The notes beneath the pieces were generated by a model, which saw only the letters and a list, made by a program, of their open reading frames with translations, ran no database searches and was not told where the DNA came from. Of a DNA stretch of 33,914 bases, positions 18,797 through 33,914 are shown one piece after another; the stretch's first letter is position 1; each line of letters opens with the position of its first letter. Position numbers and translations under genes: made by a program. The DNA is from Candidatus Competibacteraceae bacterium (lineage in GTDB: Bacteria; Pseudomonadota; Gammaproteobacteria; Competibacterales; Competibacteraceae), in contig JAEUPW010000050.1 in the NCBI GenBank assembly GCA_016790045.1, forward strand, positions 1-33,914, in the 5' to 3' direction.

Positions 18797-21142
18797 TCAA
18801 TCCAGTCGGTTCAATAGAGGCCGCGCCACGATCAGAGCGGCGATGAAACTGGCGGCCGCGCCCAGGCTCACGGTCAACCCGATGGCCCGAAGCGCCGGCA
18901 GCGCCGACGTTGAAAGCATAGCAAACACGATCAGCGCCGAGGCGCAACACACCATCAAGGCGTGCAGGGTGCGGCGGCGCAAATCCGCGTCCGCGGCGGG
19001 CCGGCTGAAAAACAGCCCGTAATCGACGCCGATGCCCAACACCAGCAGCAGCGACACCAGATGGAACAGCGACAGCCGCTCGCCCAGGGCCAACAGCGTC
19101 GCCACGGTGAACAGCAGCGCCAGCAGCACCGGCAACAGCGCGGCCACGGCCGGCCTCCAGGCGCGCAAACCCCAGCCCACCACCGCCACGATCAGCGCGC
19201 TGCCCCAGGCCAGCCGCCACAGGGCCGCCGCGCGGAATTCCGCCACCAGCCGGTTGGTCTCGGCGCGCAAGTCCAGATAATAGGCCCGCGCGTTATCCGG
19301 TTGCGGCAACCCCGCCGCCAGGGCTCGCGCGTCCCGCACCCCGCTCAAAGGCAACAGCGCGGTCCAGCCGCGCGCTCCGACCGACAGCAGGGAGCGGACC
19401 CGGACGCCCAGCACGCTCTCGCCCACCTCCTCCAATCGCAGCGGCGAGGCGGCGCGCGCGGCGGCGATGGCATCGAGAAACGGCGCGAACAAACCGGGCT
19501 TGAACGGCAACCCTTCCAGCGCGATATCGAGGTTCGCGGCCAAGGTTTCCGCCTCCGGCAACGCCGCTTGCCGCTGGCGCTGGGTCGCGAGGCTCGGCAA
19601 ATAGCGCATGGCCCCATCGTAACCGGCCAGCATCCCCGCCTGCCGCTGACGCTCCAGATAAGCCCCGACGCTTTCGCTGGCCCGCAGCGCGGTTTCGGCG
19701 TCGGGCGCGGTGATGGCGATCAGATGGCCGACTTCCGGCGCGCCCAGCGCGCCGCGCAACGCCTGATCGACTCGCAACAGCTCGCGCGGCACCGGGCTGA
19801 GCGCGGCCAGATCGTTTTCCCACAGCGGCGGCGCTTTGGCGAGCAAGCCGATCAGCAGCAGAACCCCGAGACCGCCGAACGCCAGCGCCAGGCGCGGCCG
19901 GGGCCGCAACAGCTTGTCGGCCCAATCGCCGACCACGGTCGGGCGCGGCGGCCGCCAGTGCGGCGGGACCAGCACCGGCAACAGCCAGCGGGTCGTCGCC
20001 ATGGCGGCGATGACCCCGGCGACGGTGAACACCCCCAATTGGCCCAAACCCGGAAAGCCGGAATCCAGCATCGCCAGACAGCCGAGCGCGGTGGTGGCGG
20101 CGCACAGCCGCAGCGTCGGCCACAACTGCCGCAGCGTCTCTTCCACGGTTTCGCCGGCGCGCCGGTGGCTGAACAGATAGGTGGGGTAATCCAGCGTTTC
20201 GCCGAGCAGCGTCACGCTGAACGCCAGCGTGATCAGATAAAGCTGGCCGAACAGCAAACCGACCGCCGCCGCGCCGGCCAGCAGCGCCGAGAGCATCGGC
20301 AGCGCGCCGAGCCAAAGCGTGCGCGCCGAGCCGTAGACCGCCAGCAACAGCAGCGCGACCGCCGCCAGGGACAGCCCGCTCAGCCATTCCGCCTGCGCGC
20401 GCACCCGATCCTCGGATAGCGTCGCCAGCACGCCGGGGCCGCTCAAGGTCAGGCTGACCCCGGTGGCGGCCCCCGCTCCCGCAAAGGCTTGACGGATCGC
20501 GGCGACCACCGCGCGCTGGGCTTTGAGATCGTAGCCGGAGGCGCGCGTCTCGACCAGCAGCAAAGCGCGCGCGCCATCGGGAGAGAACCAGACCCCCAAA
20601 CGCTTGGCCGGCTCGCGCAAGCCGCCTTGCAACAGCCGCAACAGGCTCAACAGCTCGCCGGTCGGGTCCTCGGCCAACCAGCGTTTCTGAAAGACCCCCA
20701 GCGGCGATTGCAGCTCCGCCAGCCGCTGTTGCAAGGCGGCGCGCAAGCCGCCCGCCGTGAAGCGCTCCGGCGCGACGGCGGGACTGAGCCAATAGCGCTG
20801 GGCGAGCAAGGCTTGCAAATCGGCGTCGGGCAGCGTTTCCGCGCCGTTGACCACCCGCGCGAACGCGGGATCGGGCCGCAACCGCTCCGCCAACCGGCGG
20901 CTGGCGGCGGCGCGATCGGCCTCGGAACCGCCGTCCAATCCCAGCAGAATCAACCGCGTGGTCGGGCCGCTGCGCAACTGTTCCAGCAGCAATTCGGCGG
21001 CCGGATCGGCGCGCGGCGCGAACAGGGTCAGATCGGCGACCACCGGCGTGGTCCAGGCGATCCAGCCACTCGCCAGCACGGCCAGCAACCACAGCAGCGG
21101 AATCCACCGGCGAGGCGCGAAATTCAAGCGGCGTCTCTCCAA
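18797..21142 (-). CDS. MMPL/RND-family exporter of the aryl-polyene locus
   Basis: A 781-residue inner-membrane transporter of the RND superfamily, comparable in size to MMPL-like proteins of other aryl-polyene and lipid export loci. There is one helix near residues 13-31 (WIPLLWLLAVLASGWIAWT), a periplasmic domain of about 220 residues, a helix cluster at about 255-390 containing GETLDYPTYLFSHR, another helix near 418-435, a second periplasmic domain, and a final cluster at about 645-780 with VLGIGVDYGLFFSR. The paired GxxxDY motifs are the proton-relay signature of the family. It begins 10 bases after the LolA-like gene and ends 3 bases before the ketosynthase. It probably hands the lipid-linked polyene to the LolA-like carrier. 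Confidence 0.92.
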   Translation of the reverse strand: MERRRLNFAPRRWIPLLWLLAVLASGWIAWTTPVVADLTLFAPRADPAAELLLEQLRSGPTTRLILLGLDGGSEADRAAASRRLAERLRPDPAFARVVNGAETLPDADLQALLAQRYWLSPAVAPERFTAGGLRAALQQRLAELQSPLGVFQKRWLAEDPTGELLSLLRLLQGGLREPAKRLGVWFSPDGARALLLVETRASGYDLKAQRAVVAAIRQAFAGAGAATGVSLTLSGPGVLATLSEDRVRAQAEWLSGLSLAAVALLLLAVYGSARTLWLGALPMLSALLAGAAAVGLLFGQLYLITLAFSVTLLGETLDYPTYLFSHRRAGETVEETLRQLWPTLRLCAATTALGCLAMLDSGFPGLGQLGVFTVAGVIAAMATTRWLLPVLVPPHWRPPRPTVVGDWADKLLRPRPRLALAFGGLGVLLLIGLLAKAPPLWENDLAALSPVPRELLRVDQALRGALGAPEVGHLIAITAPDAETALRASESVGAYLERQRQAGMLAGYDGAMRYLPSLATQRQRQAALPEAETLAANLDIALEGLPFKPGLFAPFLDAIAAARAASPLRLEEVGESVLGVRVRSLLSVGARGWTALLPLSGVRDARALAAGLPQPDNARAYYLDLRAETNRLVAEFRAAALWRLAWGSALIVAVVGWGLRAWRPAVAALLPVLLALLFTVATLLALGERLSLFHLVSLLLVLGIGVDYGLFFSRPAADADLRRRTLHALMVCCASALIVFAMLSTSALPALRAIGLTVSLGAAASFIAALIVARPLLNRLD

Positions 21143-21152
21143 TTTCGCCGGC

Positions 21153-21710
21153 CTAACGGGGCGTCAGCGTCAGCACGCCACGGTCGCCGCCGGCTTCCAA
21201 AGTCTCCACGCTCGCGATCCGCGCCTCCTGCCCGCGCAGCACGATCGCGGTCACGTAGCGGGCGGCTTCCGGGGCCAGCGGCGTCAGGCGCAAGCTCCAG
21301 GACGCGGGCGCGCCCTCGAACTCCAGGCGGTAAAAGCGCTCCAGCGTCTTGCGGTCGCCGGCTTGGGTGGCGCGGATCGCCTCCACCAGCGGCCGCAGTT
21401 GCGGATAACCGTTCAGATCGAACTGGCGGCGACCGGCGGCCGGCGTTTCCACGGTCAGCCAATCGCCGTCGGCCTCGTAATCCTCCGCTTGGGGAAACAG
21501 CGTTTGCTTGCGCAAAAAGCCCGGCGCGCGGTAATACAGCCGCCCGGTCGCGACCAGCGGCTCTCGCAGCGCCGCGAGGTGCTTTTCTTCCCGAAAATCG
21601 CCTTCCACCGCCGGCACCGCCGCCAGCAGCCGCATGACCTGATCCAAGCTCTCCTGACCGAAACCGGCCAGCGGCCCGCACAGCAACAGCGCCGCGAGCC
21701 AGCGCTTCAT
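21153..21710 (-). CDS. LolA-like periplasmic lipid carrier
   Basis: A 185-residue exported protein related to the outer-membrane lipoprotein carrier LolA. The start chosen is the ATG at 21710-21708 (MKRWLAALLLCGPLAGFGQ), which gives a clean Sec signal peptide with cleavage likely near residue 19; a longer frame would run back through the dehydratase gene. The mature protein has LolA-like features: ESLDQVMRLLAAVPAVEGDFREEKHLAAL, then a beta-rich stretch with GRLYYRAPGFLRKQ. LolA-like proteins are a standard member of aryl-polyene loci and are thought to shuttle the hydrophobic product across the periplasm. It overlaps the dehydratase stop by 4 bases (21707-21710) and precedes the MMPL exporter by 10 bases. 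Confidence 0.88.
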   Translation of the reverse strand: MKRWLAALLLCGPLAGFGQESLDQVMRLLAAVPAVEGDFREEKHLAALREPLVATGRLYYRAPGFLRKQTLFPQAEDYEADGDWLTVETPAAGRRQFDLNGYPQLRPLVEAIRATQAGDRKTLERFYRLEFEGAPASWSLRLTPLAPEAARYVTAIVLRGQEARIASVETLEAGGDRGVLTLTPR

Positions 21711-22156
21711 CGGTCGGCGCTTCCGGCGCTCGGGCGCGGGGCGATAGTCACGCGCGCCTCGGCCAACAGGCGACCGGCGGCGCTGACCGCAATCGCGTAA
21801 ATGCATTGCGCGCCCTCGCCCAACAGCAGCCGCGCCTCGACCTCCAACGGCGCGGCGTCGGCGTCCAGCTCATCGGCGAACCAACGCAGATCGCGCAGCG
21901 CGGCCAAATAGCCGGGCGGCGCGGTTTGGCCCTCCTTGCGGGCGCGCAACGCGCCGTGAATCGCCGCCGCCTGACCGCCGTACTCCACCGCGTGCGCGGC
22001 GCAAAGCCGCCCCTCCCGGCGCAGCGGGTTGGCCGGGTCGCGGTGGGTTTCGGTCAAACAGCGAATGCTGTGCGCGTCCCAAGCCGCGACCTTCTCCAGC
22101 AGGCACATGGTCCCGCTGTGAGGGATCAGGCTTCGAATTTCAATGTTGTCGATCAT
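21707..22156 (-). CDS. Hotdog-fold 3-hydroxyacyl-ACP dehydratase 1 (ApeP-type)
   Basis: A 149-residue single-hotdog dehydratase predicted to remove water from the 3-hydroxyacyl-ACP to leave a conjugated double bond. The N-terminal SLIPHSGTMCLLEKV (residues 9-23) carries the conserved His, and CAAHAVEYGGQAAAIHGAL near residues 52-70 is the long hotdog helix with the acidic residue. This pattern differs from classical FabZ (HFP..P...G) but is typical of aryl-polyene loci. It overlaps chain-length-factor-like gene 2 by 4 bases and the LolA-like gene by 4 bases. A second, FabZ-like hotdog is encoded at 28507-28815. Confidence 0.88.
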   Translation of the reverse strand: MIDNIEIRSLIPHSGTMCLLEKVAAWDAHSIRCLTETHRDPANPLRREGRLCAAHAVEYGGQAAAIHGALRARKEGQTAPPGYLAALRDLRWFADELDADAAPLEVEARLLLGEGAQCIYAIAVSAAGRLLAEARVTIAPRPSAGSADR

Positions 22157-22944
22157 CGGACCTGCACGTTCAGTTCGAGGCGGGCCGCCGGCAGATAGGG
22201 CAACGCGAGCGCCGCCGATCCGCCGATCGCGAGCCGCCGCAACAGCGGCAGCGCGCGCGCGGCGGGATTGCTCAAGCGCAGGCGCTCCAACCGTTCATCC
22301 GGCAGCGAATCGGCCGCGCCGGGCCGGATCCGCAAATCGCGGAGGGTGGCGATACTACCGGGAAGCGGCTCCGGCGTCAGCAGCAACGCCAGGCCAAACG
22401 GGGCGCCGACCGCCCGAAACGGTCGCAAGGCCAGCGGCGGCGGGGTGTCGTAAGCCACCAGCAGCACCGGCCGCCACTCCAGCCGCGCCAGCGCGACGGC
22501 TTCCAGCAGGCCGGCGGCGAAAGTGGCGTCAAACGCGCCGACGCTGACCGCCGGACGCATCGAACCGGTCGCGATGCTCCAATAGCCGAGCGGGGCGTTG
22601 TGCACCGAGTGGTTGAACTGGCCGGGCGAAAGCGCGCGTTCGGGTTCGAGCAACGCCTGGCACAGCGCGTCCAGGGCTTCGGTGTTGCCGCCGGCGCAGG
22701 CGAACACCGCCCCGCAACGCCCGGCGTCCAGCCCGGCGGCGTCCAGCGCCTCGCCCGCCGCCTGCAAGGCCAACCGGACGGTCAGCGTCGCCCGGCGCGC
22801 TTCGTTGCGCGGCAGCCGCACCCGATCGAAGCGCAAAGCCGCCTCTGGGCCGTAGGGCCGCGATCCCGCCAGCACCGGGCGCCCGCTCGGCCAGTCCGGC
22901 AGACCGGGCGCGCACACGCCCACGCCGCTGACCCACGCGCTCAT
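22153..22944 (-). CDS. Beta-ketoacyl synthase-like chain-length factor 2 (Ketoacyl-synt_2 type)
   Basis: A 263-residue paralogue of the protein at 16797-17600. Start at the ATG 22944-22942 (MSAWVSGVGVCAPGLPDW); the frame upstream overlaps the DUF218 gene and is not used. It shares VGVCAPGLPDW, NEARRATLTVRLALQAA, SVHNAPLGYWSIATG and RLSNPAARALPLL with its paralogue, about the same spacing throughout. The nucleophile-elbow region reads GAFDATFAAG with no Cys, and the histidine half of ketosynthases is missing, so it should be non-catalytic. It is coupled by 4-base overlaps to the DUF218 gene upstream and the dehydratase downstream, away from the catalytic ketosynthase. Whether it replaces or joins paralogue 1 in the heterodimer cannot be told from sequence. 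Confidence 0.87.
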   Translation of the reverse strand: MSAWVSGVGVCAPGLPDWPSGRPVLAGSRPYGPEAALRFDRVRLPRNEARRATLTVRLALQAAGEALDAAGLDAGRCGAVFACAGGNTEALDALCQALLEPERALSPGQFNHSVHNAPLGYWSIATGSMRPAVSVGAFDATFAAGLLEAVALARLEWRPVLLVAYDTPPPLALRPFRAVGAPFGLALLLTPEPLPGSIATLRDLRIRPGAADSLPDERLERLRLSNPAARALPLLRRLAIGGSAALALPYLPAARLELNVQVR

Positions 22945-23633
22945 GAGATGCGCGTCAGGTTCCGGCGGTTTCCGGTCCAGCGCGACCACGCCTTGCCGAC
23001 GCGATACCAGTGCAGATAGTACGCCTCCCGGCCGAGCCGCCAGACGGTCAGCGGGTTGAGGTCGAGACGATCCTCGGCGGCGCACAGCCTGGGGTGCAGC
23101 GCCAGACCGCGCGCCAGCGCTTCGCTGCGGGCCAGATGGTGCCGGCTGGTCACCAGGACGAAAGGGCGGTCGCGCAACTCCGCCCGCAACCGGCGGGCGT
23201 GGCGCAAGTTGTCGAGCGTGTTCAGCGATTGATCCTCGACGAACAGCGCCGGCGCCGGGATGCCGGACGCTCGCAGAAATTCTCGGCCGCATTCGGCTTC
23301 GCTGATCGCGCCGCCGGTGGGACCGCCGACCAGCAGCACGCGCCGCCGGGGATCGGCCCGATACAGCGCGGCGGCGCGCCGCAGGCGGCGGGCATAGCCA
23401 GGCCCTACCGCATCGCCGATCAGGCGCGCGCCCAGCACCACGATCCACTCCCCCTCGATCCCGGAAACCGGCGTGCCGCGCGCGATCCGCCAGACCCGAT
23501 AATAGAGCCAAACCCCGCTCAAACCGGCCGTCGCCAGCAGCACCAAATTGGACAAAACCAGCATCGCCGCGCCGTTCCAGCCGATGCCGCGCTGGCGGGC
23601 GAACCATCGTTCGGGAGCCAATCCGGGTTTCAA
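22941..23633 (-). CDS. DUF218/YdcF-SanA-like membrane protein in the polyene operon
   Basis: A protein of about 230 residues with one N-terminal hydrophobic helix (AAMLVLSNLVLLATAGLSGV) and a DUF218 domain as in YdcF, SanA and ElyC. Family landmarks are WIVVLGARLIGD, RVLLVGGPTGGAISEAE, FVEDQSLNTLDNLRHAR and VLVTSRHHLARSEAL. The start is taken as TTG 23633-23631: it overlaps the acyltransferase TGA as TTGA and has GAGGA 6 bases before it. A TTG 13 codons further up also keeps the frame open but has no such site. DUF218 proteins affect envelope polysaccharide or undecaprenyl-linked processes, though the biochemical activity is unproven. Its place inside the operon suggests a role in processing or exporting the polyene; that is inference. 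Confidence 0.83.
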   Translation of the reverse strand: MKPGLAPERWFARQRGIGWNGAAMLVLSNLVLLATAGLSGVWLYYRVWRIARGTPVSGIEGEWIVVLGARLIGDAVGPGYARRLRRAAALYRADPRRRVLLVGGPTGGAISEAECGREFLRASGIPAPALFVEDQSLNTLDNLRHARRLRAELRDRPFVLVTSRHHLARSEALARGLALHPRLCAAEDRLDLNPLTVWRLGREAYYLHWYRVGKAWSRWTGNRRNLTRIS

Positions 23634-24535
23634 CTCGATTCCTCGGCCCAGTAATCGTAGAAATTGAACCAATTATAAGGCGCGAGCCGGGCGTAATGCT
23701 CCAGGCGCTCGGCATAGCGCTGGACCCAAACGCCCAACTGCTCCTGGCGGCGGCGCGGCTCCAGCGCGATCCGCTCGGCCAGCTTTTCGAAATGCACGTC
23801 GTAGCGATCGCCGCCCCGATATAAACCGAAACACAGAATCACCGGACACTCCATCAGCGCCGCCAGCAGGATCGGCCCGATGGGAAACCGGGTTTCCTGG
23901 CCGAAAAACCGGCAGCATACCGTCTTGTCGTCCTGCGCCACCCGGTCGCCCAGCGCGCCGATCAAACAGCCTCGCGCCACGCTTTCTTGCACCGCCAGCA
24001 GCGTTTCGGGCCGACCGATGGGAATGATGGCTCGCGCCAGTTCCGGATTTAGCGCCTCGAACAACCGGGTCAGGGCTCGATTGTGTTCGACGTTCATCAA
24101 AATCTTGATCGGAAAGGGGCGCAGGGTCGAGCCGACCCCCCGCAAGGCGTCAAAGCTGCCCAAATGCGAGCCCAACAAAATGCAGCCCCGGCCCGAGGCC
24201 ACCTGATCCAAAATCGTCTGGCCGCCGAAAATCTCGATGCGGAAATAATCCAGCCGGCCGGTCAGAAAATAGACCCGATCCAGGACGGTGGCCGCAAAAC
24301 AGTGGATGTGGTGAAACAGCTCCCGCCAGCGCGGCTCCCGGCCCGACACCCGGCGCAGATAAAGCCGGGAACCCTGGCGGGCGGCGGCGGCGGTGATCAG
24401 AAAATACAGGGTGATGGGATACAGCAAAGCGCGGGCGGCGGGGCGGCCGAGATACAGCGCGATCGCGCGGATCAGCCAAAGCGCCAGCGGCGAGCCCCGC
24501 TCCGGCAACCGCGCCCAGTTCCGGCTTCGGCTCAC
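23630..24535 (-). CDS. LpxL/HtrB-type lysophospholipid-like acyltransferase (LPLAT)
   Basis: A 301-residue membrane-associated acyltransferase related to the late lipid A acyltransferases. The catalytic HxxxxD appears as GSHLGSFD, His124 and Asp129, followed by ILMNVEHNRALTRLFEALNP. An N-terminal hydrophobic stretch (LALWLIRAIALYLGRP and LYPITLYFLITAAAARQ) precedes it. LGDRVAQDDKTVCCRFFGQE near 195-215 is the usual second block. The start is GTG at 24535 with GGAGA 9 bases upstream on the minus strand, 30 bases after the ACP stop. Acyltransferases of this type are a regular part of aryl-polyene loci, where they are thought to move the finished polyene from ACP onto a lipid anchor. The acceptor is not shown by the sequence. 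Confidence 0.9.
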   Translation of the reverse strand: MSRSRNWARLPERGSPLALWLIRAIALYLGRPAARALLYPITLYFLITAAAARQGSRLYLRRVSGREPRWRELFHHIHCFAATVLDRVYFLTGRLDYFRIEIFGGQTILDQVASGRGCILLGSHLGSFDALRGVGSTLRPFPIKILMNVEHNRALTRLFEALNPELARAIIPIGRPETLLAVQESVARGCLIGALGDRVAQDDKTVCCRFFGQETRFPIGPILLAALMECPVILCFGLYRGGDRYDVHFEKLAERIALEPRRRQEQLGVWVQRYAERLEHYARLAPYNWFNFYDYWAEESS

Positions 24536-24565
24536 GGGCTGGCGTCTCCGCTGGCGAGCGCGCCG

Positions 24566-24835
24566 TCAGCGGGCGCGCTGCTGTTCGATATGCTGGCTCA
24601 AGGCCCGCAGCGAGGCGAACACGCGCCGGTTTTCCTTGTCGTCCGAACGCAGTTGAAAACCGTAAGTCTTCGAAACCGCCAGCGCCAATTCCAGCGCGTC
24701 GATGGAATCCAAACCCAGGCCCTCGCCGAACAGCGGCTCTTCCGGAGCGATTTCTTCCGGCTTGACATCTTCCAGATGCAGGGTCTCGACCAACAGTCGA
24801 GCCACCTCCAGCTCGAACGGTGAAAGCGGTTGCAT
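24566..24835 (-). CDS. Acyl carrier protein of the polyene synthase
   Basis: An 89-residue carrier with the phosphopantetheine site Ser44 in GEGLGLDSIDALEL. It starts MQPLSPFELEVARLLVETLH and is acidic with some extra charged residues near the C-terminus. The ATG at 24835 has GAGG at 24842-24845 (minus strand), 6 bases upstream. It is the first gene of the long operon, 30 bases ahead of the acyltransferase. Described aryl-polyene loci of the E. coli type often carry two ACPs; only this one is visible here. Confidence 0.93.
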   Translation of the reverse strand: MQPLSPFELEVARLLVETLHLEDVKPEEIAPEEPLFGEGLGLDSIDALELALAVSKTYGFQLRSDDKENRRVFASLRALSQHIEQQRAR

Positions 24836-25050
24836 TGATGACCTCGCGGGAGTGTATTGTGATCTCGGTAACCGTTTTGAGTCGTGGTGCTATCACGGTT
24901 CGCACATGCGTTGATAGACTATATCATGCCCGTTAAAAATAACCTTTACCCGCTCGGATCGACGCTGTCGAAAGCCCTGCCCCCCCCTTGTGATCGCCGT
25001 GGAGCGCCGGGCTTGGAGGTCGGGGGCCGCGCCCGCCCACCCGGCCCGAC
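24836..25050. promoter_or_regulatory. Divergent promoter/operator region between the polyene operon and the chorismatase gene
   Basis: A 215-base gap between two divergently read blocks, more AT-rich than its surroundings between 24840 and 24960. Two inverted repeats stand out: AACCGT (24870-24875) with ACGGTT (24895-24900), and TGATA gacta TATCA around 24912-24926. Either could be an operator, and the second lies in an AT-rich stretch suited to a -10. No full sigma70 promoter with good spacing could be picked by eye. No regulator gene is adjacent. Confidence 0.4.
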
Positions 25051-26037
25051 ATGAGCCTGTTCACCGTTTTCTATGGCGACGCCGCCGACTGCCGCGACCG
25101 CTTGCGCGACGACCGTCTGCTGGCGCTGGTCCGTTTCGCTCATCCCCCCGCCACGGAAGCGGACGGACGGATTTGCACCGTCGATCTCGAAGCGTTGGGC
25201 TCCGGCGCGACCGCCGAAATCTGGCTGGGCGCGCGCCCGGCGCGCGTTGCGGTGAGCGAAGGCATCTACCACGCCGATGACGGCGAGGTGCTGTTCCTGC
25301 ACGCCCGCTCAGACGAATACGCGCCGGATGCGCTGCAACCGCTGACCGCCGTGCTTTACCGGCGGCTGTTCGCCAAGGCCCGCGCCCTGGGCTACCCGCA
25401 CGTTCTGCGCGTCTGGAATTACTTTTCCCGGATCAACCAGGAATGCGGCGGCCTGGAACGCTACCGGGCCTTTTGCGCGGGCCGGCATCAGGCGCTGGCG
25501 GCGGAACTGGCCGAATTCGAAACTCGCCTGCCCGCCGCCTCGGCCATCGGCACCCGCGCCGCCGGCTTGCAAGTCTGCGCGCTGGCCGCTCGCGAGCCGG
25601 GCGCGCAGATCGAAAACCCGCGCCAGGTCAGCGCTTTTCGTTATCCCCGCCAATACGGCCGGCGCAGCCCTTCCTTTTCGCGCGCCATCTTGAAATCCTG
25701 GGGCGAGGGCCGCGAACACCTGTATATTTCCGGCACCGCCAGCATCGTCGGCCACGCGAGCAGGCATGACGATTTGTCCGGCCAGTTGGAGGAAACCCTC
25801 GCCAATCTGGACGCCTTGCTGGCCGAAGCGGAGCGACGGGCGGAAAACCCGCTCGCGCTGGCGCTGCTGAAAATCTACGTCCGGCCCGAACTGGACCCCG
25901 CGCCCTTGCGCGAGCGCATCGCGCGGACCTTCGGCGAGCGGACGCCGCTGCTGTTCTTGCGCGCCGACATCTGCCGGCGAGAGCTGCTGCTCGAAATCGA
26001 AGGGCTGGCGACCGCGCCCGCCGCCCGCCACCTTTAG
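25051..26037 (+). CDS. Chorismatase, FkbO/Hyg5/XanB2 family
   Basis: Converts chorismate to a hydroxybenzoate (or dihydroxycyclohexadiene acid) plus pyruvate. In Xanthomonas, XanB2 gives 3- and 4-hydroxybenzoate for the pigment xanthomonadin and for ubiquinone. The 328-residue length fits the family. Diagnostic stretches are VWNYFSRINQECGGLERY (121-138), ENPRQVSAFRYPRQYGR (188-204), SPSFSRA (206-212) and YISGTASIVGHAS (225-237). Older annotations call these pteridine-dependent deoxygenases. The ATG at 25051 lacks a strong ribosome site. It is read divergently from the ACP operon and is followed after 11 bases by a methyltransferase. Which hydroxybenzoate isomer it makes cannot be decided by eye. 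Confidence 0.92.
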   Translation: MSLFTVFYGDAADCRDRLRDDRLLALVRFAHPPATEADGRICTVDLEALGSGATAEIWLGARPARVAVSEGIYHADDGEVLFLHARSDEYAPDALQPLTAVLYRRLFAKARALGYPHVLRVWNYFSRINQECGGLERYRAFCAGRHQALAAELAEFETRLPAASAIGTRAAGLQVCALAAREPGAQIENPRQVSAFRYPRQYGRRSPSFSRAILKSWGEGREHLYISGTASIVGHASRHDDLSGQLEETLANLDALLAEAERRAENPLALALLKIYVRPELDPAPLRERIARTFGERTPLLFLRADICRRELLLEIEGLATAPAARHL

Positions 26038-26048
26038 GATCGCGCCCC

Positions 26049-26807
26049 TTGAAACCGGAAAAACCGCTCGAACCGCATCCGGCGTTGCCGGACTATTATC
26101 CCGACCTGGCGCAACGGCCCGCGTTCGTGCGCGGGCTGTTCGACCGCACCGCCCGCCACTACGACCGGATCTGCCAGCTAATGTCCTTCGGGTCGGGCAA
26201 CTGGTACCGCCGCCGGGCGCTGGAACGCGCCGGCCTGCGCCCCGGCATGACGGTGCTGGATGTCGCCACCGGCACCGGGCTGGTCGCCCGGCAGGCCCTG
26301 GCGATCACCGGCGACCCGCGAGCGGTGATCGGCCTGGACGTGAGCGCGGGGATGCTGGCCGAGGTGAAACGGCTTTTGAACATCCCGCTGATGCAAGGCT
26401 TGATGGAGCGGTTGCCGGTCGCGGATGGCTGCTGCGACATGATCAGCATGGGCTACGCCCTGCGGCACGTCGCCGATCTCAACGCGACCTTCCGAGAATT
26501 CCATCGCGCGCTGCGGCCGGGCGGCGTGTTGCTGATCCTGGAAATCGCCCGGCCCGCCACGCCCTTGAAGCGAGGTATCATCAAATTCTATATGGGGCGG
26601 GTGATCCCGCTGCTCAGCCGCCTGACCACCGGCCAGCAAGACGCCCAAACGCTGATGCGCTATTACTGGGACACCATCGAAAATTGCGTCGCGCCCGACA
26701 CCATCGTGCAGGCGATCCGCGACGCCGGTTTCGCCGAAGCGGGCTGCGATGCGGAATTCGATCTGTTCCGGGCCTATTTCGGGCGCAAGGGCGGCGGCGG
26801 GACTTGA
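26049..26807 (+). CDS. UbiE/COQ5-like SAM methyltransferase
   Basis: A 252-residue class I methyltransferase. It resembles UbiE in RTARHYDRICQLMSFGSGNWYRRRAL near residues 33-58, the SAM motif VLDVATGTGLVARQA near 75-90, GYALRHVADLNATFREFHRALRPGGVL near 135-160 and MRYYWDTIENC near 205-215. The start is TTG at 26049, with AGGA at 26036-26039 overlapping the chorismatase stop, spacing 9. True UbiE ends its motif II with R.FKPGG and works on ubiquinone; here the linkage to the chorismatase suggests methylation of the aryl ring of the polyene or its hydroxybenzoate starter. That substrate is inference. It ends 26 bases from the convergent GFA gene. Confidence 0.87.
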   Translation: MKPEKPLEPHPALPDYYPDLAQRPAFVRGLFDRTARHYDRICQLMSFGSGNWYRRRALERAGLRPGMTVLDVATGTGLVARQALAITGDPRAVIGLDVSAGMLAEVKRLLNIPLMQGLMERLPVADGCCDMISMGYALRHVADLNATFREFHRALRPGGVLLILEIARPATPLKRGIIKFYMGRVIPLLSRLTTGQQDAQTLMRYYWDTIENCVAPDTIVQAIRDAGFAEAGCDAEFDLFRAYFGRKGGGGT

Positions 26808-26833
26808 GCGATCAGCGCAACAGCGTTTATCGC

Positions 26834-27193
26834 CTACAACAGGTGCTTGCCATCGAAAACGTCCGCTTCGAGCGCGAGCGGATCGACGCCGTCGACGCAC
26901 CCCAGATTGACCCGGAAGTGTCCCGGCTTCCTGATGGTTTGGTGGAAGGTGTAGATGCCGCAGCGCTTGCAGAAATAATGCTTGGCGATGCTGGAGCCGA
27001 ACTGGTAAAGCCCCAGCGCGTCTTCGCCGGCTTCGATCCTGAAGTTCTCCGGGGCGATGATCTCCGCCGACATCATCGCCCCCTTGCGGATGCAAAGCGA
27101 GCAATTGCAGCGCAAGCCTCTCTCGATCGCCTCGCCCCGATACGAAAAACGGACCGCGCCGCAATGGCAGGAACCCCGGTAAGACTGGCTCAT
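26834..27193 (-). CDS. GFA/CENP-V domain zinc protein
   Basis: A 119-residue protein of the glutathione-dependent formaldehyde-activating (GFA)/CENP-V fold. The start is the ATG at 27193-27191 (MSQSYRGSCHCGAVRF). Zinc ligands are Cys9 and Cys11 in SCHCGAV, Cys29/31/34 in CNCSLC, and Cys76/79 in FCKRCG, a complete set. The domain is often annotated S-(hydroxymethyl)glutathione synthase or just GFA protein, and most members have no proven activity. It is last in the second minus block, 58 bases behind the O-methyltransferase-like gene, and may simply be a passenger. A link to the polyene pathway is not supported by anything but position. Confidence 0.88.
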   Translation of the reverse strand: MSQSYRGSCHCGAVRFSYRGEAIERGLRCNCSLCIRKGAMMSAEIIAPENFRIEAGEDALGLYQFGSSIAKHYFCKRCGIYTFHQTIRKPGHFRVNLGCVDGVDPLALEADVFDGKHLL

Positions 27194-27251
27194 CAATCGC
27201 TCCTCACAGTTGTGGAACCCGGACGCTTTGCGGCTTGCCGCCGCCAAACCC

Positions 27252-28436
27252 CTAAGGCTTGACCGCGCCCACGGCGGCCGCGACCAAGGCGGGATAGCGC
27301 TCGCGAATCCGGGGAATATCCGGCCAGACGAACGGCTCGGCGAAACCCGCCGCACGAAACGCCGCCAGCCACTGTTCGGGCGTCAGAAAGCCCCCGTTTG
27401 GCCGCCACTGCGGCTGCAAAACCGGAGCGCGGAACGAGTCGAGCAGCGCGAAGACGAATTCGACGTAAACCGTCCGACCGGGAAACGGCCGCACGCATTC
27501 GGAGGCGATCAAGCATCCGCCCGGCGCGAGCGCGGCGCGGATTTCCGCCAGCGTAAACGCCAGATCGCGCGCCACATGCAAAGTGTTGACCCCGTACACC
27601 ACCGACAGGCTGCCCGGCTCCACGCCCGCCTTGGCAAACGGCCGGTCGATGTCGAGCAGGCCGCAACTGAGCCGGCCCGGCGCGTCGGGCCGGGCCATCA
27701 ACGCCCGCTGGCCGCGCCGCAAAAACAGCGGCGATAGCTCGGTGAACCGATAGGCTTCAATGCGCTCCGTCGCGCCCGCCGCCGCGAAGCCGTCGAGCAA
27801 AGCCATCGCGCCGCTCCCGGCCCCGCCGCCGATTTCGAGAACGGTTCCGCGCGGATGCGGGAAGCGCGCCAAAACCGCCCTGGACCCGATTTGATTGCTG
27901 ATCGCGTAGAGCGGATTTTGATTTGAAAAATAGTCGGACCAAGCCGAAATGCGGTCGGCGGAGAACAAAACCGCCTCTCCGGTCGCCGCACCGCGCATGA
28001 CCTGCGGGTAGCCTTCCGCCGCGAGGGCCGCCAGGCGATACGACGGCAGCGCGGCGGGATCGTGCGCGGCCTGCGCCCGCTCGATCTCCGCCGGATCGAG
28101 GTCCGGCAGAGGCCCGAGCGCCTGAAAGCGGCCCGGTTCGCCACCGTTTCGCGCGACCGCGCCCCGTTCGACCAAAAGGCGCAACAGCCAATCGACCAGG
28201 GGCGGTCCGGGCGCCGCATCCAGGCCCGCGCGCGAGGCGATGTCCGCCGCCGCGCCGCCGCGCGCGAGCGCCTCCTCCAGACCGGCGTCGCGCGCGACCT
28301 TGAGCGCCAACCGGAAGACATACTCTTCGATCAGATCGCACGACGCGATGAAGCGATCGTCGAACAGCGGCAACAGCGCGACGGGCAGCAGGGCGGAGCG
28401 CAGGTCGGAACCGGTGGCGACGGGGCGGACAGGCAT
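27252..28436 (-). CDS. O-methyltransferase-like SAM-dependent methyltransferase
   Basis: A 394-residue protein. The start is the ATG at 28436-28434 (MPVRPVATGSDLRSALL); the frame further up has no matching content. Residues 30-105 look like the dimerisation/winged-helix domain of plant-type O-methyltransferases. The SAM domain has VLEIGGGAGSGAM near residues 200-212, VVYGVNTLHVARDL near 283-296 and LAPGGCLIASECVRPFPGR near 310-330. It lies 70 bases after the FabZ-like gene in the block begun by the aryl ligase. Aryl polyenes commonly carry methyl or O-methyl groups on the ring, so modification of the head group is a reasonable inference; the acceptor atom is not known. Confidence 0.8.
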   Translation of the reverse strand: MPVRPVATGSDLRSALLPVALLPLFDDRFIASCDLIEEYVFRLALKVARDAGLEEALARGGAAADIASRAGLDAAPGPPLVDWLLRLLVERGAVARNGGEPGRFQALGPLPDLDPAEIERAQAAHDPAALPSYRLAALAAEGYPQVMRGAATGEAVLFSADRISAWSDYFSNQNPLYAISNQIGSRAVLARFPHPRGTVLEIGGGAGSGAMALLDGFAAAGATERIEAYRFTELSPLFLRRGQRALMARPDAPGRLSCGLLDIDRPFAKAGVEPGSLSVVYGVNTLHVARDLAFTLAEIRAALAPGGCLIASECVRPFPGRTVYVEFVFALLDSFRAPVLQPQWRPNGGFLTPEQWLAAFRAAGFAEPFVWPDIPRIRERYPALVAAAVGAVKP

Positions 28437-28506
28437 TAAAACCACCCCTCGACGCGCCCGACTTCCGGCGATAGGATCATTGCGCGACCGCGACGTCCCA
28501 TGCCGG

Positions 28507-28815
28507 TCAACGCTTCGCCTCAACCCAACGCAACTGGCCTTGCGCCAGCATCTGGCCGTCCTCGCGGACGCACTCGAAACGCAGCTTGCCGGCGGTTGCA
28601 CCCAGAAAACGGACGATGCACGTTTGTTCCGGCCGCAACGGCGCCAAGAATTTCACCACCGGCATCCCGCTCGCGTTCCGGTCCGGATATTGGGCCGCAA
28701 ACGCTTGCAGCACCTCGTCCAAAATCACCGCGCCGGGCACGATGGGATTGCCGGGGAAATGCCCGGCCAGGCTGGGATGGTCGGCGGCGATGGAAAAAGA
28801 TCGTTCAACGGTCAT
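28507..28815 (-). CDS. FabZ/FabA-like hotdog dehydratase 2 (ApeI-type)
   Basis: A 102-residue hotdog protein, shorter than FabZ (about 150). It has the FabZ signature HFPGNPIVPGAVILDEV (His19, Glu34). The start is the ATG at 28815-28813; 11 bases overlap the end of the aryl ligase gene (28805-28815). Aryl-polyene loci usually contain two different hotdog proteins, one of this short kind and one of the kind at 21707-22156. Roles proposed are dehydration or product release; here both should act on ACP-bound intermediates. Confidence 0.88.
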   Translation of the reverse strand: MTVERSFSIAADHPSLAGHFPGNPIVPGAVILDEVLQAFAAQYPDRNASGMPVVKFLAPLRPEQTCIVRFLGATAGKLRFECVREDGQMLAQGQLRWVEAKR

Positions 28816-30139
28816 GCGGGAGCGTCGCGGCGGGATGCAGTCTGGCCAACAGCGCCAACAGCGCTTCCCGCGTCGGCTTGCCGGTTTCGTTGCGCGGCAG
28901 GGCATCGACCTTGACCAGCGGGCGCGGCAAAAACACCGGATCGAGCCGTTGGGCCAGGGCGGCGAGCAGTTGACGCTTGCTCAAGCCGGGCGCAACCACC
29001 AGCGCCGCCAGTCGCGCGACCTCGCCCTCTCCTGATTCCGGCGACAGAAAAACGCCCTCGACCACGCCGTCGATGTCGTTGAGCTGGTGGTTGAGATAGC
29101 CGAGCGAGGTCCGTTTGCCGGCGATGTTGACCACATCCTCCAGCCGGCCCAGCAGCTTGAATTCCGACGGCCCGCACGGCTCGACGATATCGTTCAACGG
29201 CACCGGTTCGGGCAAGTGCGCGCCGGAGAGCCGGCCGTCGCGCAGCTCGAAACCGTCGTACAGCCGCCAGCGGTCGCCGTCCAGGGTGCGGCGGCTGGCG
29301 ATGGAGCCGGCTTCGGTGCAACCGTAGATTTCCAAAACCGGCGCGCCGAAAGCGGCTTCGGCCTGGGCCGCCAGCTCCGCCGACAATGGGGCGGTCGCCG
29401 AAATCAAAAACGCCGGTCGCGGCCACGTCAAGCCAGCCTGGACGCAGGCTTGCAGGTGAACGGGCGTGGTGACCAGCACGCGCGGTGCGGGTACGGCGGC
29501 CAGCGCCGCGCGCACGTCGCCCGGAAAAAACGGCCGCCCGCCGTGGACCCGTGCGCCGCTGGCCAAGGGCGCCATGATCGAGGTTTCCAGACCGTACATG
29601 TGCTGGGGCGGCACGGTCGCCACGATAGCGGTGGTCGGGTCAAAGCCGAAACGCTGTCGCGCCTGGCGCGCGCCGCCGATCAGTTCGCCCCAGGTTTTGA
29701 CGTTCGGTTTGGCCTGCCCGGTGCTGCCGGAGGTGAAAGCCACCGCCATCACCTGATCGGCCGGCAGTTCGGGCACGGCGCGCGCGGTGTCGTCGCCAAA
29801 GTCCGCGTCCAGCCACGCTTCGATGTCGTCGTCCGCAATCGTGCCGCTGTCGGGATAATCCTCGGCCACGCGCCGCAAATGCAGGGCGGCGCGGCTGGAG
29901 GGCAGCAGATTGCTTTGGCCGTTCGCGCCCACGGCGGCGAACGCGACCAGAAAGCGGTAACGATCCTCGCAGAGGTTGATGATGAAACGGACCGGCAGCA
30001 ACCGGCGGGCGACCCGCTCGACATGCGCCAGAAAAAGATCGCGCCGGATCGGCTGCGACCGCCGCCAGGCGATCAACTGATCCGGGGAAGCCATTGACAG
30101 CAAGGGAAATTTGGCGAGCATCGTGGAAGATCGGCGCAT
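28805..30139 (-). CDS. Aryl/acyl AMP-dependent ligase loading the polyene ACP (XanA2-like)
   Basis: An adenylate-forming enzyme that activates a hydroxybenzoate with ATP and moves it to the carrier protein. About 444 residues from the ATG at 30139-30137 (MRRSSTMLAK); ATGs at 30121 and 30094 are also possible, and none has a clear ribosome site. Motifs: P-loop VAFTSGSTGQAKPN, aryl-pocket and A5 EIYGCTEAGSIASR, hinge GRLEDVVNIAGKR, and C-terminal catalytic lysine in PRNETGKPTRE. The frame stays open upstream to 30268 but that stretch overlaps the divergent DUF2970 gene and has no family match. Being in a block with a dehydratase and methyltransferase, and with a chorismatase nearby, it is very probably the starter-loading ligase, equivalent to Xanthomonas XanA2. 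Confidence 0.9.
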   Translation of the reverse strand: MRRSSTMLAKFPLLSMASPDQLIAWRRSQPIRRDLFLAHVERVARRLLPVRFIINLCEDRYRFLVAFAAVGANGQSNLLPSSRAALHLRRVAEDYPDSGTIADDDIEAWLDADFGDDTARAVPELPADQVMAVAFTSGSTGQAKPNVKTWGELIGGARQARQRFGFDPTTAIVATVPPQHMYGLETSIMAPLASGARVHGGRPFFPGDVRAALAAVPAPRVLVTTPVHLQACVQAGLTWPRPAFLISATAPLSAELAAQAEAAFGAPVLEIYGCTEAGSIASRRTLDGDRWRLYDGFELRDGRLSGAHLPEPVPLNDIVEPCGPSEFKLLGRLEDVVNIAGKRTSLGYLNHQLNDIDGVVEGVFLSPESGEGEVARLAALVVAPGLSKRQLLAALAQRLDPVFLPRPLVKVDALPRNETGKPTREALLALLARLHPAATLPHDR

Positions 30140-30243
30140 TGATGGTTTAATGTAGCAAAATTCAGCGGTCCTGCGCCCGTCTGTTGGGCCGGCGACTTCA
30201 AAAGACCCCACCTTTTCGATCCCTTGAACCGACGCTAAAGCCG

Positions 30244-30489
30244 ATGACTCGTCCCCCCGATACTCCACCGCCCGATCCCAAGGATTCCCACCGACAACCC
30301 GGCGCGCTGGACGTGGTGTTTAGCGTGCTCGCGTCCTTTTTCGGCGTGCAAAGCGCGCGCAATCAGGAGCGGGATTTCCGCCACGGCCGCGCGGCCCATT
30401 TCATCATCGTCGGCCTCGGTTTGACCTTGCTGCTGATTTTCGGCATTTGGCTGGCGGTCAAATTGGCCTTGCGCGCCGCCGGCGCTTAG
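30244..30489 (+). CDS. DUF2970 family small membrane protein
   Basis: An 81-residue protein with a proline-rich N-terminus, the DUF2970 core LDVVFSVLASFFGVQSARNQERDF near residues 22-45, and one transmembrane helix near residues 54-75 (IIVGLGLTLLLIFGIWLAVKLAL). The start is the ATG at 30244; a GTG 60 bases earlier only adds sequence unlike the family. DUF2970 proteins are widespread in gamma- and betaproteobacteria and have no known role. It stands alone between the aryl ligase (divergent) and the peptidoglycan-binding gene. Confidence 0.85.
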   Translation: MTRPPDTPPPDPKDSHRQPGALDVVFSVLASFFGVQSARNQERDFRHGRAAHFIIVGLGLTLLLIFGIWLAVKLALRAAGA

Positions 30490-30534
30490 CTCGCAAGCCT
30501 TCTTTTTTAACCCCCGGCCCAGTGGATTTTAGCG

Positions 30535-31326
30535 ATGAGCCGCATCGTTCTCACCGAAGAATTGGAGGCCGAGTACGGTCGTCTGTTCGCCGATTGCACG
30601 GCTCGCCCGGAACGGGACGCCGAGGTCGATGCGCTGGCGGACGCCCTTTTGGCTGATCGGGGCCGCTATCACGCGGTCGGCGCACGGTTGGGGATACCGT
30701 GGTTCGTGACGGCGGTGCTGCATTACGCCGATACCGGCCGCGATTTTGAAGTCCACCTGCATAACGGCGACCCGCTGACCGACCGCACCCAGCATTTGCC
30801 GGATGGCAGGCCGCCGGAAGGCGAGCCGCCGTTCGCCTGGGAAGATAGCGCCGCCGATGCGTTGCGCCTGCGCCATATCGATCAGTGGGATGACTGGAGC
30901 ATCGCCGGGGTTCTGTTTTTGCTGGAAGCGCGCGGCGGCTGGAGCTACCGCCTGCACCATCCCGAAGTGCTATCGCCTTATTTGTGGAATTATTCGACCC
31001 ACTACCGTCAGGGCAAGTACATCGCCGACGACACCTGGAACGAAACCGCCGTCGCCCAGCGCTGCGGCGCGGCGGTGCTGTTGCGGCGGCTGGCGGAACG
31101 CGGCGTCATCGATTTTGCCGGAGAGCGCCCGCCCCGGCCTTTGGTCCGCTACGACCGCGGCGAACCCGCGCCGGCGGTGGAAGCGCTGCAACGATTTTTG
31201 AACACGCTGCCCGGTATTTTCGTCAAGGTGGATGGCGTGGCCGGCCCCAGAACCTCGGAAGCGTTCCACAAACTCTGCGGGCGGTATCTGCTGGGCGACC
31301 CGCGCGACTCCGAACCGCCAGGCTAA
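30535..31326 (+). CDS. Lysozyme-like protein with peptidoglycan-binding domain
   Basis: A 263-residue protein without an evident signal peptide. Residues 5-190 resemble a lysozyme-like domain family also known from cyanobacteria: GRYHAVGARLGIPWFVTAVLHYADTG, the HLHNGDPLTDRTQHLPDGRPP stretch, WEDSAADALRL, DWSIAGVLFLLEARGGWSYR and QRCGAAVLLRRLAERG. Residues 205-250 (PAVEALQRFLNTLPGIFVKVDGVAGPRTSEAFHK) form a peptidoglycan-binding type 1 repeat. Glu residues early in the domain could be catalytic but are not proven. No holin or other phage gene is nearby. It ends 164 bases before the kinase gene; the two could be one unit, but there is no overlap. Confidence 0.82.
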   Translation: MSRIVLTEELEAEYGRLFADCTARPERDAEVDALADALLADRGRYHAVGARLGIPWFVTAVLHYADTGRDFEVHLHNGDPLTDRTQHLPDGRPPEGEPPFAWEDSAADALRLRHIDQWDDWSIAGVLFLLEARGGWSYRLHHPEVLSPYLWNYSTHYRQGKYIADDTWNETAVAQRCGAAVLLRRLAERGVIDFAGERPPRPLVRYDRGEPAPAVEALQRFLNTLPGIFVKVDGVAGPRTSEAFHKLCGRYLLGDPRDSEPPG

Positions 31327-31486
31327 AATCCCGATTCTATCTCAGCCCTTTAGCTTGATCGTCAGATCCAATTTCCGAATCGCCCGTAGCAGTCATTCCT
31401 CCGACTTAATAGGGCGCTCATCGCTGATTGATGGCGCGCTCCGTGCATCCCCCCAGCATTTTGCAATCAATCGGAAATCGGGATTT
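31326..31486. repeat. Widely spaced 11-base inverted repeat upstream of the kinase gene
   Basis: AAATCCCGATT at 31326-31336 and its exact reverse complement AATCGGGATTT at 31476-31486. The first arm starts at the stop of the preceding gene; the second ends 4 bases before the proposed kinase start. The 139-base spacer holds nothing else recognised. It may be chance, a long-range hairpin or a scar. Confidence 0.5.
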
Positions 31487-31490
31487 GCGG

Positions 31491-33818
31491 ATGACACAGC
31501 TTAAATGTATGGGGTGCATGACCGATCGGGGAGCCGAAACTGTTTGTTCGCACTGCGGGTTTTCAGAATCCGATCAACCCGCCTCGCGGCAGCATTTGCC
31601 ATTACGGACCGCATTGCAAGCCCGCTATACCGTCGGGCGCGTGCTCGGCGAAGGCGGCTTCGGAATCACTTATCTGGGTTGGGATGATACCTTGGCGCTG
31701 CGGGTCGCCATCAAGGAATTTCTGCCGCGCACCCTGGCCGGGCGAAGCGGTGATGGCCTATCGGTGCAAGTTTATCAGGGCAAATCGGCCCAAGAATTCG
31801 CTTACGGCCTAGAACAATTCCTGGATGAGGCGCGGAGGCTAGCGCGCTTCGCCAACCATCCCGGCATCGCGACGGTACGCGACTTTTTCGCCGCCAATCA
31901 GACCGGATACTTGGTCATGAACTATCTCGACGGCGTGACCTTGCAAGATTATTTGCTCCGCCAAGGCAATCGTATTTCCGTAGATCAAGCCCTTGATATC
32001 TTGCTGCCGGTCATGGACACCTTGCGAGATATTCACGCTTCGGGCCTTCTGCATCGCGACATCAGTCCCGACAATCTTTTTGTGCCGGATGGCAAACCGA
32101 CCAAACTGATCGATTTCGGGGCGGCACGCACCGCCCTAAGCCAGCACAGTTGCAGTTTGTCGGTGGTGGTCAAACCGGGCTTCGCCCCCGAAGAACAATA
32201 TCGCACGCGAGGAGAGCAAGGCCCGTGGACGGATGTTTATGCGCTCGGTGCAACTTTGTACTGGGCGTTGACCGGCGAACGTCCGCCGCCCGCTCCAGAT
32301 CGCGCTTATCAAGACACACTGTTGCCACCCACGGTTTTGGGCGCAATTTTGCCCGCGCCGGCGGAGGACGCCTTGCTAAAGGCGCTGGCGGTGCGATCCG
32401 AACAACGCTTTCAGACTGTAGAAGAATTTCAAACCGCCTTATTGCAAGGCATCGGCAAGGCGGACATTTTTCACGGCACACCGCGCGTAACCGTTTCACG
32501 GCCCGCGCCGCCAGCGACCGTTGTTAACCTCAAGAAAGCCGAGCCCGCTTCTAATAAACTGCTGAGAGGACGGTATTGGCTATCCGAAAAACTCGGCGAA
32601 AGCGAAGGAGTATCGACCTACTTGGCAATTGATCATCACACCCATCAACGTTGCTTGATCAAACAATTTTTCTTGGAAAAGGCGAACGATTGGAAAAGCG
32701 TTGAACTGTTCGAACGCGAAATTAAAACCCTTAAAAATCTGAATCACCCACATGTTCCTGATTACCTAGATAGTTTCTTCAACGAAGAGGGCCATCGTCA
32801 GGATTTATTTTTGGTGCGGGAATATCTACCTGGAAAAACTCTCATCCAGCATATGGCCGAGGGACGTCGCTTTACCGAGCAAGAAGCGCGATCAATAGCC
32901 CTCGTTTTGGCCGAGTTGCTATGCTATCTCCATCGCTTCTCACCACCGCTAATCCATCGAGACATCAAACCCGGCAGTTTATTGTTGAGCGAAGAAGAGA
33001 AAATCTATCTCATCGATTTTGCTGAAGTGCAAGACGCCCTCAAATTGAGCTGGGGATCTACCGTAGCGGGAACGTTCGATTATCAACCCCCAGAACAGAA
33101 ACGGGGGAAACCGGTCCCCGCTTCCGATATCTACTCGCTAGGCGCTACCTTGATCCATCTTTTATCGGGGCTCCGTCCCTCGCGCTTGCTCGCCAAAGAC
33201 CAACGACTCCTGTTCCGCGCTCATGTCAATGTGTCTGAAGAATTCAGAAATATCCTAGAAAAAATGGTGGAACCAAAGCTGGATCGGCGCTATCGGACTG
33301 CGGCTCGGCTCTTGGAAGATTTACAAAATCTGAATGTGGCTTTGCCGGAATCCCGGCCTTTTAGAATCGATAAACGGCTCTGGCTGGCCGGCGGCTTGAC
33401 GGTGCTTGTGGGCCTTGCCGGATTAATCGGCTTTATGGGATGGCCGGGAAGTTTGGTCTCGTTATCTATGGGACCCGCGATTCAGGAAGCTTTGGAGCGG
33501 AGCAGCGCTGTCAGAACTAATGTAACAGAGTATTTCATCACGAGCGGCAAGCTACCAAACAGCAACGCTGACCTTAAGCTACCCCAGCCCAGCGCTTACC
33601 GATCATCGCTGGTAGAATCGATTAGTATTTTACCTAACGGTTTCATTGAGACCAAATTAAATCGAAATGCCATTAACTCAGGAGGAACCATTTATTTTAA
33701 ACCCCTTGTCAACTTTGAAACTTACTTTATTGAATGGAAATGTCTTTCTCCTGACATCAAACAAATTGCCAAAATCGCGCAAATATGTACTTATGAGCCT
33801 GGATTTTCATTAAAATAG
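31491..33818 (+). CDS. Transmembrane Ser/Thr protein kinase with tandem kinase domains and pilin-like C-terminus
   Basis: Start at ATG 31491 (MTQLKCMGCM), 775 residues; a start at 31428 would add 21 residues before the zinc ribbon. Layout: zinc ribbon with CxxC pairs (Cys6/9, Cys19/22); kinase 1 at about 46-320 with glycine loop GEGGFG, Lys75, HRD 188-190, Asn195, DFG 208-210 and APEEQY 232-237, so it looks active; kinase 2 at about 360-615 with a weak glycine loop, Lys391, HRD 489-491, but Ser496 in place of the Mg-binding Asn and DFA in place of DFG; a membrane helix near 630-650; then about 115 residues resembling the type IV pilin headgroup, with NVTEYFITSGKLPNSN (677-692) and Cys751/Cys766 placed like the pilin D-loop pair. 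It is probably an inner-membrane receptor with a periplasmic pilin-like sensor. The signal and substrates are unknown. Confidence 0.92.
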   Translation: MTQLKCMGCMTDRGAETVCSHCGFSESDQPASRQHLPLRTALQARYTVGRVLGEGGFGITYLGWDDTLALRVAIKEFLPRTLAGRSGDGLSVQVYQGKSAQEFAYGLEQFLDEARRLARFANHPGIATVRDFFAANQTGYLVMNYLDGVTLQDYLLRQGNRISVDQALDILLPVMDTLRDIHASGLLHRDISPDNLFVPDGKPTKLIDFGAARTALSQHSCSLSVVVKPGFAPEEQYRTRGEQGPWTDVYALGATLYWALTGERPPPAPDRAYQDTLLPPTVLGAILPAPAEDALLKALAVRSEQRFQTVEEFQTALLQGIGKADIFHGTPRVTVSRPAPPATVVNLKKAEPASNKLLRGRYWLSEKLGESEGVSTYLAIDHHTHQRCLIKQFFLEKANDWKSVELFEREIKTLKNLNHPHVPDYLDSFFNEEGHRQDLFLVREYLPGKTLIQHMAEGRRFTEQEARSIALVLAELLCYLHRFSPPLIHRDIKPGSLLLSEEEKIYLIDFAEVQDALKLSWGSTVAGTFDYQPPEQKRGKPVPASDIYSLGATLIHLLSGLRPSRLLAKDQRLLFRAHVNVSEEFRNILEKMVEPKLDRRYRTAARLLEDLQNLNVALPESRPFRIDKRLWLAGGLTVLVGLAGLIGFMGWPGSLVSLSMGPAIQEALERSSAVRTNVTEYFITSGKLPNSNADLKLPQPSAYRSSLVESISILPNGFIETKLNRNAINSGGTIYFKPLVNFETYFIEWKCLSPDIKQIAKIAQICTYEPGFSLK

Positions 33819-33914
33819 ATGGAAAAACTATTATTGACGTGTTGTTGATTTTGTCGAAGGTTCCAAGCATCCGTTATTTTGATATTGAATTCTAATCCTG
33901 TCAGGAACATCAAA
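33819..33914. other. AT-rich end of window without a recognised gene
   Basis: The 96 bases after the kinase stop are AT-rich and hold only very short frames. No terminator hairpin, repeat or RNA gene could be recognised before the window ends. Confidence 0.5.

Follow-up and report, generated by a model that had tools for sequence, protein, structure and literature searches.

A two-kinase protein with a pilin-like C-terminal domain in a Candidatus Competibacteraceae genome: kinase domains of apparently different source and a GC staircase across the gene

Does a fall in GC content in the middle of a kinase gene mark the seam at which a second half was recently joined on, or does it belong to a gene that is AT-rich from end to end? 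The question is raised by a stretch of 33,914 nucleotides (the window), which makes up the whole of contig C153 in an incomplete assembly of 2.76 Mb and 179 contigs (completeness 75.8, contamination 3.4). An earlier note had described a sharp change of composition in the linker between two kinase domains and had taken it to suggest that the second half of the protein was joined from a different source or is a fast-changing module. The reading that we regard as moderately probable is that an AT-rich, lineage-specific site harbours the gene for an accessory receptor-type Ser/Thr kinase, that the C-terminal half of this kinase has been repeatedly remodelled, and that its second kinase domain is probably regulatory.

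The kinase gene (31,491–33,818, plus strand) likely starts at the ATG at 31,491, near which its kin also begin, and lies in a frame open from a TTG at 31,428 (31,428–33,818, plus strand), so that the protein comprises 775 or 796 residues depending on the start. The protein opens with a CxxC/CxxC ribbon, which precedes kinase 1 and kinase 2, and ends, after a single transmembrane (TM) helix, in a C-terminal domain of the Pfam Pilin type; the Pfam scan returned two protein kinase stretches and the Pilin domain. The CxxC/CxxC motif, a probable zinc ribbon (31,506–31,556; residues 27–43 of the 796-residue frame), is conserved upstream of kinase 1 across seven aligned kin. It is followed on the same strand by kinase 1 (31,623–32,441; residues 66–338; Pfam Pkinase), a linker (32,442–32,570), kinase 2 (32,571–33,326; residues 382–633), a single hydrophobic TM segment (33,375–33,440; approximately residues 650–671) and the Pilin-like domain PF00114 (33,483–33,761; residues 686–778; 28.6 bits at a cut-off of 22), the ribbon motif and the TM segment both being read from the letters by eye. 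An AT-rich 3' flank (33,819–33,914) runs on to the contig end. Among the kinase loci examined by coordinates, two separate kinase domains were found only in the window protein (copies L039, L051 and L105), and the scan of genome contigs gave four loci only. Other apparent tandem kinases were mostly, by their coordinates, one kinase matched by two overlapping models.

The five hand counts of GC in the earlier note were all exact (38, 29, 23, 21 and 21 of 60), and its picture of GC-rich surroundings was borne out by a GC content of 0.646 for the window and a mean of 0.638 (sd 0.042) for 130 genes sampled from the same assembly, a sample in which 5 of the 18 stretches read as N. However, kinase 1 does not lie at the chromosomal level: among 913 in-gene windows of equal length, no more than 0.66% are as low as its 0.58; it contains one 200-base stretch at 0.515, and the line at 31,621 that served for the hand count is among its richer lines. 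The whole gene has a GC content of 0.520, equally low in 0.8% of the 130 sampled genes, which divides into 0.542 for the N-terminus, 0.580 for kinase 1, 0.592 for the linker, 0.482 for kinase 2, 0.547 for the TM segment and 0.416 for the tail, with 0.333 in the 3' flank. Values as low as that of kinase 2 occurred in none of 981 in-gene windows of the same assembly, and values as low as that of the tail in 0.2% of 1514. When GC cuts were placed by likelihood segmentation, the strongest cut of the whole window fell at 31,324 (0.658 to 0.511; logLR 107.5), where the preceding gene has its stop codon, and the next at 33,613, inside the pilin-like tail. With the tail left out, a cut was placed at 32,549, at the end of the linker and the start of kinase 2 (logLR 10.2), and none of the 300 codon shuffles was as strong. 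The sharp change that had been claimed for the linker is thus a real step, but it is the weakest of three. At fourfold sites, GC was found in 129 of 174 positions in kinase 1 against 67 of 112 in kinase 2 (Fisher p=0.013, a modest difference), and the latter in turn exceeded the 20 of 51 in the tail (p=0.018). The GC profile is a staircase across an entire AT-rich gene and not a single break.

The end of synteny and the strongest GC cut coincide (31,319–31,326), and the main border is the upstream edge of the kinase gene, where synteny stops. The last gene shared with relatives is a conserved neighbour gene of 263 residues (30,535–31,326, plus strand), for which the Pfam scan gave no family above its cut-off; counting the window's own, 20 of the 39 family genomes contain relatives of this gene. 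The sister species G001 is collinear with the window from 13,681 to 31,319 (85.4% over 17.7 kb), where the match ends, and in none of the 19 other neighbour-gene loci examined does DNA similarity extend beyond 31,320; its end falls within 31,265–31,320 in 16 of the 19. In G001 the next gene past the end of synteny encodes a DDE-superfamily transposase (L132:46-1080), which marks the site as variable; the transposase was seen only in this sister species. The intergenic stretch (31,326–31,486) carries at its two ends the arms of a perfect 11-base inverted repeat (31,326–31,336 and 31,476–31,486). A synteny break with atypical composition, as expected of a horizontally acquired island, is thus present on the left side of the kinase gene, which is the last gene on its contig; the right side, with the right border of the site, lies beyond the contig end, and a search of the same assembly for a continuation of that end found none.

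A border of this kind would also be expected if the whole gene had recently been imported in one piece from an AT-richer relative or a mobile element and had inherited its staircase from the donor, an explanation that we consider rather unlikely. Synteny ends at the gene edge, kinase 1 is itself shifted towards AT (fourfold GC of 0.73–0.74 versus 0.91–0.96 in two related kinases that the genome also encodes) and had no match of at least 60% identity in the five other congeners searched, and in G020 and G047 the gene is located elsewhere in the chromosome than in the window (L059:8579-10288 and L151:833-2518, respectively). However, kinase 1 is about 76–77% identical to the kinase of G020 (74–76% across G020 and G047), to which it is sister in the tree (support 100/99) inside a small group of the same family, and an identity of 76% is close to the 73% measured to G020 for the vertically kept neighbour gene, as common descent predicts. 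In addition, no donor was found, and up to the contig end neither mobility genes nor a right border were seen. The kinase 1 gene is adjoined by a diaminopimelate epimerase gene in G020 and by a 1936-residue open reading frame in G047.

A different picture emerged for kinase 2. A tree of 37 domains placed it in one clade with all seven cyanobacterial kinases (100/99) and next to two of these (98/91), and the AU test rejected its placement in one clade with ten family kinases (delta lnL 91.9, p-AU 0.00016). The separate trees of kinase 1 and kinase 2 therefore disagree, and the domains of the protein do not follow a single phylogeny, in agreement with the suggestion that the second half is of different source; judged by these trees, the two halves of the kinase protein do differ in source. 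The trees and the AU test together reject an origin of kinase 2 by duplication of kinase 1 or of a native family kinase. Because the cyanobacterial rows of the kinase 2 tree are all plasmid-borne, in a tree with other phyla thinly sampled, we describe kinase 2 as cyanobacterial-type without naming a donor. Among plasmid matches, 24 of the best 25 listed were cyanobacterial, with an identity of 36.5% at most, and the genome and plasmid searches found no relative above 40% identity. Only the window's own genome passed in searches of 369 genomes of the class (E 1e-28) and 398 of the phylum (E 1e-25), and the 39 family genomes gave one other weak match (2.9e-26). The lateral recruitment of additional domains by cyanobacterial Hanks-type kinases is described in a survey (PMC2176072). 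Kinase 2 resembles such proteins in that it groups with plasmid-borne examples; however, the examples examined have one kinase per protein where the window protein has two, their identity to kinase 2 is 38% at most, and kinase 2 lacks canonical residues.

The full residue set of Hanks-type Ser/Thr kinases is complete in kinase 1, with the catalytic Lys, the C-helix Glu, the HRD Asp and Asn, DFG and APE all present, and incomplete in kinase 2. The latter keeps the Lys, the C-helix Glu, the HRD Asp, the DFG Asp and most core residues; its nucleotide loop is degenerate, with Ser in place of the second glycine and Val in place of the third, the catalytic-loop Asn is replaced by Ser (Asn in 56 of 58 domains compared), and the DFG Gly by Ala, giving DFA (Gly in 57 of 58). 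Such lost motifs might point to kinase 2 and the tail decaying under relaxed selection, with AT-biased mutation lowering their GC content, and this would also fit the shrinkage of kinase 2 to a stub in G020 and G047 and the nearly equal GC of the tail at all three codon positions. We nevertheless consider decay improbable, since the frame of 796 codons contains no stop, and kinase 2 retains both the coding pattern of GC by codon position and most of its core residues.

The age of the join can be approached through the relatives. Past kinase 1, the G020 orthologue continues with a linker and a short match to the start of kinase 2 (32,556–32,666 on the plus strand; residues 377–413), after which come a TM segment and, at 18.3 bits (below the cut-off of 22), an LprI-like domain, and the same order of stub, TM segment and LprI-like domain, with a shorter stub, was found in G047, a second species of the genus of G020. 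When the region after kinase 1 was compared with kinase 2 taken without the linker, none of 1000 shuffles reached the score of G020 and none that of G047, whereas for eight other kin between 100 and 895 of the 1000 did. Both stubs scored highest with the window's kinase 2, and the next-best row was cyanobacterial in both, with the qualification that not every one of the five cyanobacterial rows precedes every family row. The join is not recent, since G020 and G047 both have their kinase 2 stub at the same position: these matches indicate that it predates the split of the two genera's genes, or else that the gene was shared between them, and that kinase 2 has since shrunk to a stub in the genus of G020 and G047. 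The kinases of this genus thus have the ribbon motif, kinase 1, the linker, the start of kinase 2 and the TM segment in common with the window protein, whereas they keep only a stub of kinase 2 and carry the LprI-like domain (below cut-off) where the window protein has its Pilin domain. More generally, what follows kinase 1 is different in almost every relative, as would be expected of the fast-changing module that had been proposed: it is LprI-like in G020 and G047, an FGE-sulfatase domain in G019 (in others by eye) and DUF4384 in G017, and G022 gave a weak DnaJ-like match below the cut-off. In kin from a Bacillota metagenome-assembled genome, reading of the sequence suggested an FHA-like region after the kinase.

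A fall in GC after the kinase is likewise found in relatives. At fourfold sites GC drops from the kinase to the rest of the protein by 0.16 in the window, 0.23 in G020, 0.27 in G047 and 0.36 in G019, and orthologues that have no kinase 2 also lose GC downstream of the kinase. In 47 other kinases the mean fall was 0.092 (sd 0.062). The four orthologues differed from these (p=0.00015, for a grouping that was chosen after an earlier look and includes two congeners), whereas all nine kin taken together did not (p=0.13), and in the G017 kin GC rises after the kinase instead of falling. The count leaves out duplicate entries of a gene, loci that are plasmid-borne or truncated (L004, L008, L009; L088, L091) and proteins with fewer than 40 fourfold sites after the kinase; several of the rows that it includes are cut at the locus end. 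Because falls were measured both in the orthologues and in the 47 other kinases, a fall in GC outside the kinase domain is common here, and that of the window is not extreme. The full architecture with the same GC gradient did not recur in orthologues; the gradient alone did.

These comparisons bear directly on the possibility that kinase 2 and the head were recently spliced onto kinase 1 from an AT-rich source, with the GC step in the linker as the seam, to which we assign only a slim chance. The divergent phylogeny of kinase 2, its AT-rich kin (GC of 0.39–0.42 in five cyanobacterial kinases) and the position of the GC cut at the start of the kinase 2 domain would all agree with such an event. 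A recent donor, however, should have left a relative of kinase 2 above 40% identity, the head has no known cyanobacterial match here, the stubs occupy the same place in two species of another genus, and the GC fall is also seen where kinase 2 is missing. As a main cause, a recent linker splice is rejected because of the stubs and because orthologues that lack kinase 2 show the GC fall as well, and composition is not supported as a sign of a recent join. The inference of the earlier note holds in part, on grounds other than composition. The staircase would instead reflect the AT-rich site of the gene combined with poorer third-position GC in changeable C-terminal modules, and would not be the product of a recent splice in the linker, although the kinase 2 stub of G020, with its high GC content, shows no AT-rich legacy.

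The composition of the assembly was considered as well. The similarity of the window to G001 is 85.4%, which agrees with the 84.8–88.2% measured between six other stretches of its own assembly and the sampled parts of G001 (two short matches to G001 are lower, one of them between paralogous kinases), and the window contig therefore appears native. Contig C72 of the same assembly (G000; L176, 1-17388) is 98.5% like G001 and at the same time a second copy, at 85.4%, of window positions 13,847–31,226, and it is C72 that is likely a foreign contig in the assembly. The idea of the window contig as a binning error was rejected, given that its similarity to G001 matches that of the assembly's own stretches and that C72 is the likely foreign one. 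A chimeric contig end or a mis-binned contig is hardly credible as the cause of the staircase, for although the kinase gene is last on its contig and the assembly does contain the likely foreign C72, the similarity of the window to G001 fits the six own stretches, the order of kinase 1, linker and kinase 2 start recurs in G020 and G047, and the single stop-free frame of 796 codons crosses every domain join.

For an accessory receptor-type kinase as favoured above, we propose that kinase 1 is the working enzyme and that the membrane-proximal kinase 2 acts as a pseudokinase-like domain, weak or regulatory, which would relay to kinase 1 a signal arriving through the single TM helix. In the periplasm the pilin-like head would receive this signal, possibly by binding an envelope protein, perhaps a pilin. 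Active and degenerate kinases are combined in one chain in the JAK-type tandems of animals; in comparison with these, order, partners and origin differ, and regulation in the window protein is only inferred. The role proposed for the head is drawn by analogy from PASTA kinases, in which outer domains bind a ligand and dimerise the kinase (PMC6213207). The PASTA-type receptor kinases PknB and PrkC likewise have a cytoplasmic kinase, one TM segment and an outer C-terminal domain (PMC6213207). In contrast to them, the window protein has two kinase domains and a Pilin-like head, and the PASTA family was absent from the Pfam scan of the protein.

The head itself gave a weak match to PilE in a PDB search of the tail (E 0.0018), and a single-sequence fold model of the tail reached a mean pLDDT of 43. 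Reading of the kinase protein revealed no cleavage site for a prepilin peptidase. Because its Pilin domain is C-terminal in a 796-residue protein and no prepilin site was seen, we regard the head as something other than a type IV pilin, although it belongs to the pilin sequence family. A Pilin domain after a hydrophobic segment, then followed by ankyrin repeats, was found in L053 (G039) and L083 (G390), from other genera. These TM-anchored ankyrin proteins share with the window protein the placement of PF00114 after a hydrophobic segment in a non-pilin protein, but have ankyrin repeats, placed after the Pilin domain, instead of kinases. Since the same arrangement of the Pilin domain occurs in two ankyrin proteins, the comparison supports its interpretation as a portable outer module. 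That the head binds pilins or the pilus machine in the periplasm, and that a borrowed cyanobacterial-type pseudokinase at the membrane gates a native kinase, is a doubtful proposition in this specific form. Two further loci, L088 (G108) and L091 (G237), contain a pilin-like gene of approximately 260 residues with several hydrophobic segments, in the neighbourhood of a Ser/Thr kinase gene and of a gene that looks EAL-like by eye.

Bacterial kinases with extra domains are already known, and the exact architecture of two kinases and a pilin-like domain appears to be new; a literature search, based on listings and the beginnings of abstracts, did not find it. If kinase 2 regulates kinase 1, the protein would offer a testable bacterial case of control by a pseudokinase. 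It provides a lead to a ribbon-kinase with exchangeable C-terminal halves, in which fusion, shrinkage and replacement are visible across genera of one family, and also to a tandem in which a degenerate kinase of another lineage is joined to a pilin-like head. It equally serves as a warning, since the drop of GC in mid-gene resembled a splice, the stronger border lay at the gene edge, and the splice proved old once the stubs were found.

Elsewhere in the window, a GC-rich stretch (15,580–23,498; GC 0.71) contains ketosynthases, an MMPL transporter, a glycosyltransferase and an acyltransferase, and is followed by genes for an FkbO/Hyg5-like chorismatase, a methyltransferase and an AMP-binding protein (25,051–30,268), which together with it resemble an aryl-polyene-type cluster. 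A gene for a C-5 cytosine DNA methylase is located at 4,172–5,455.
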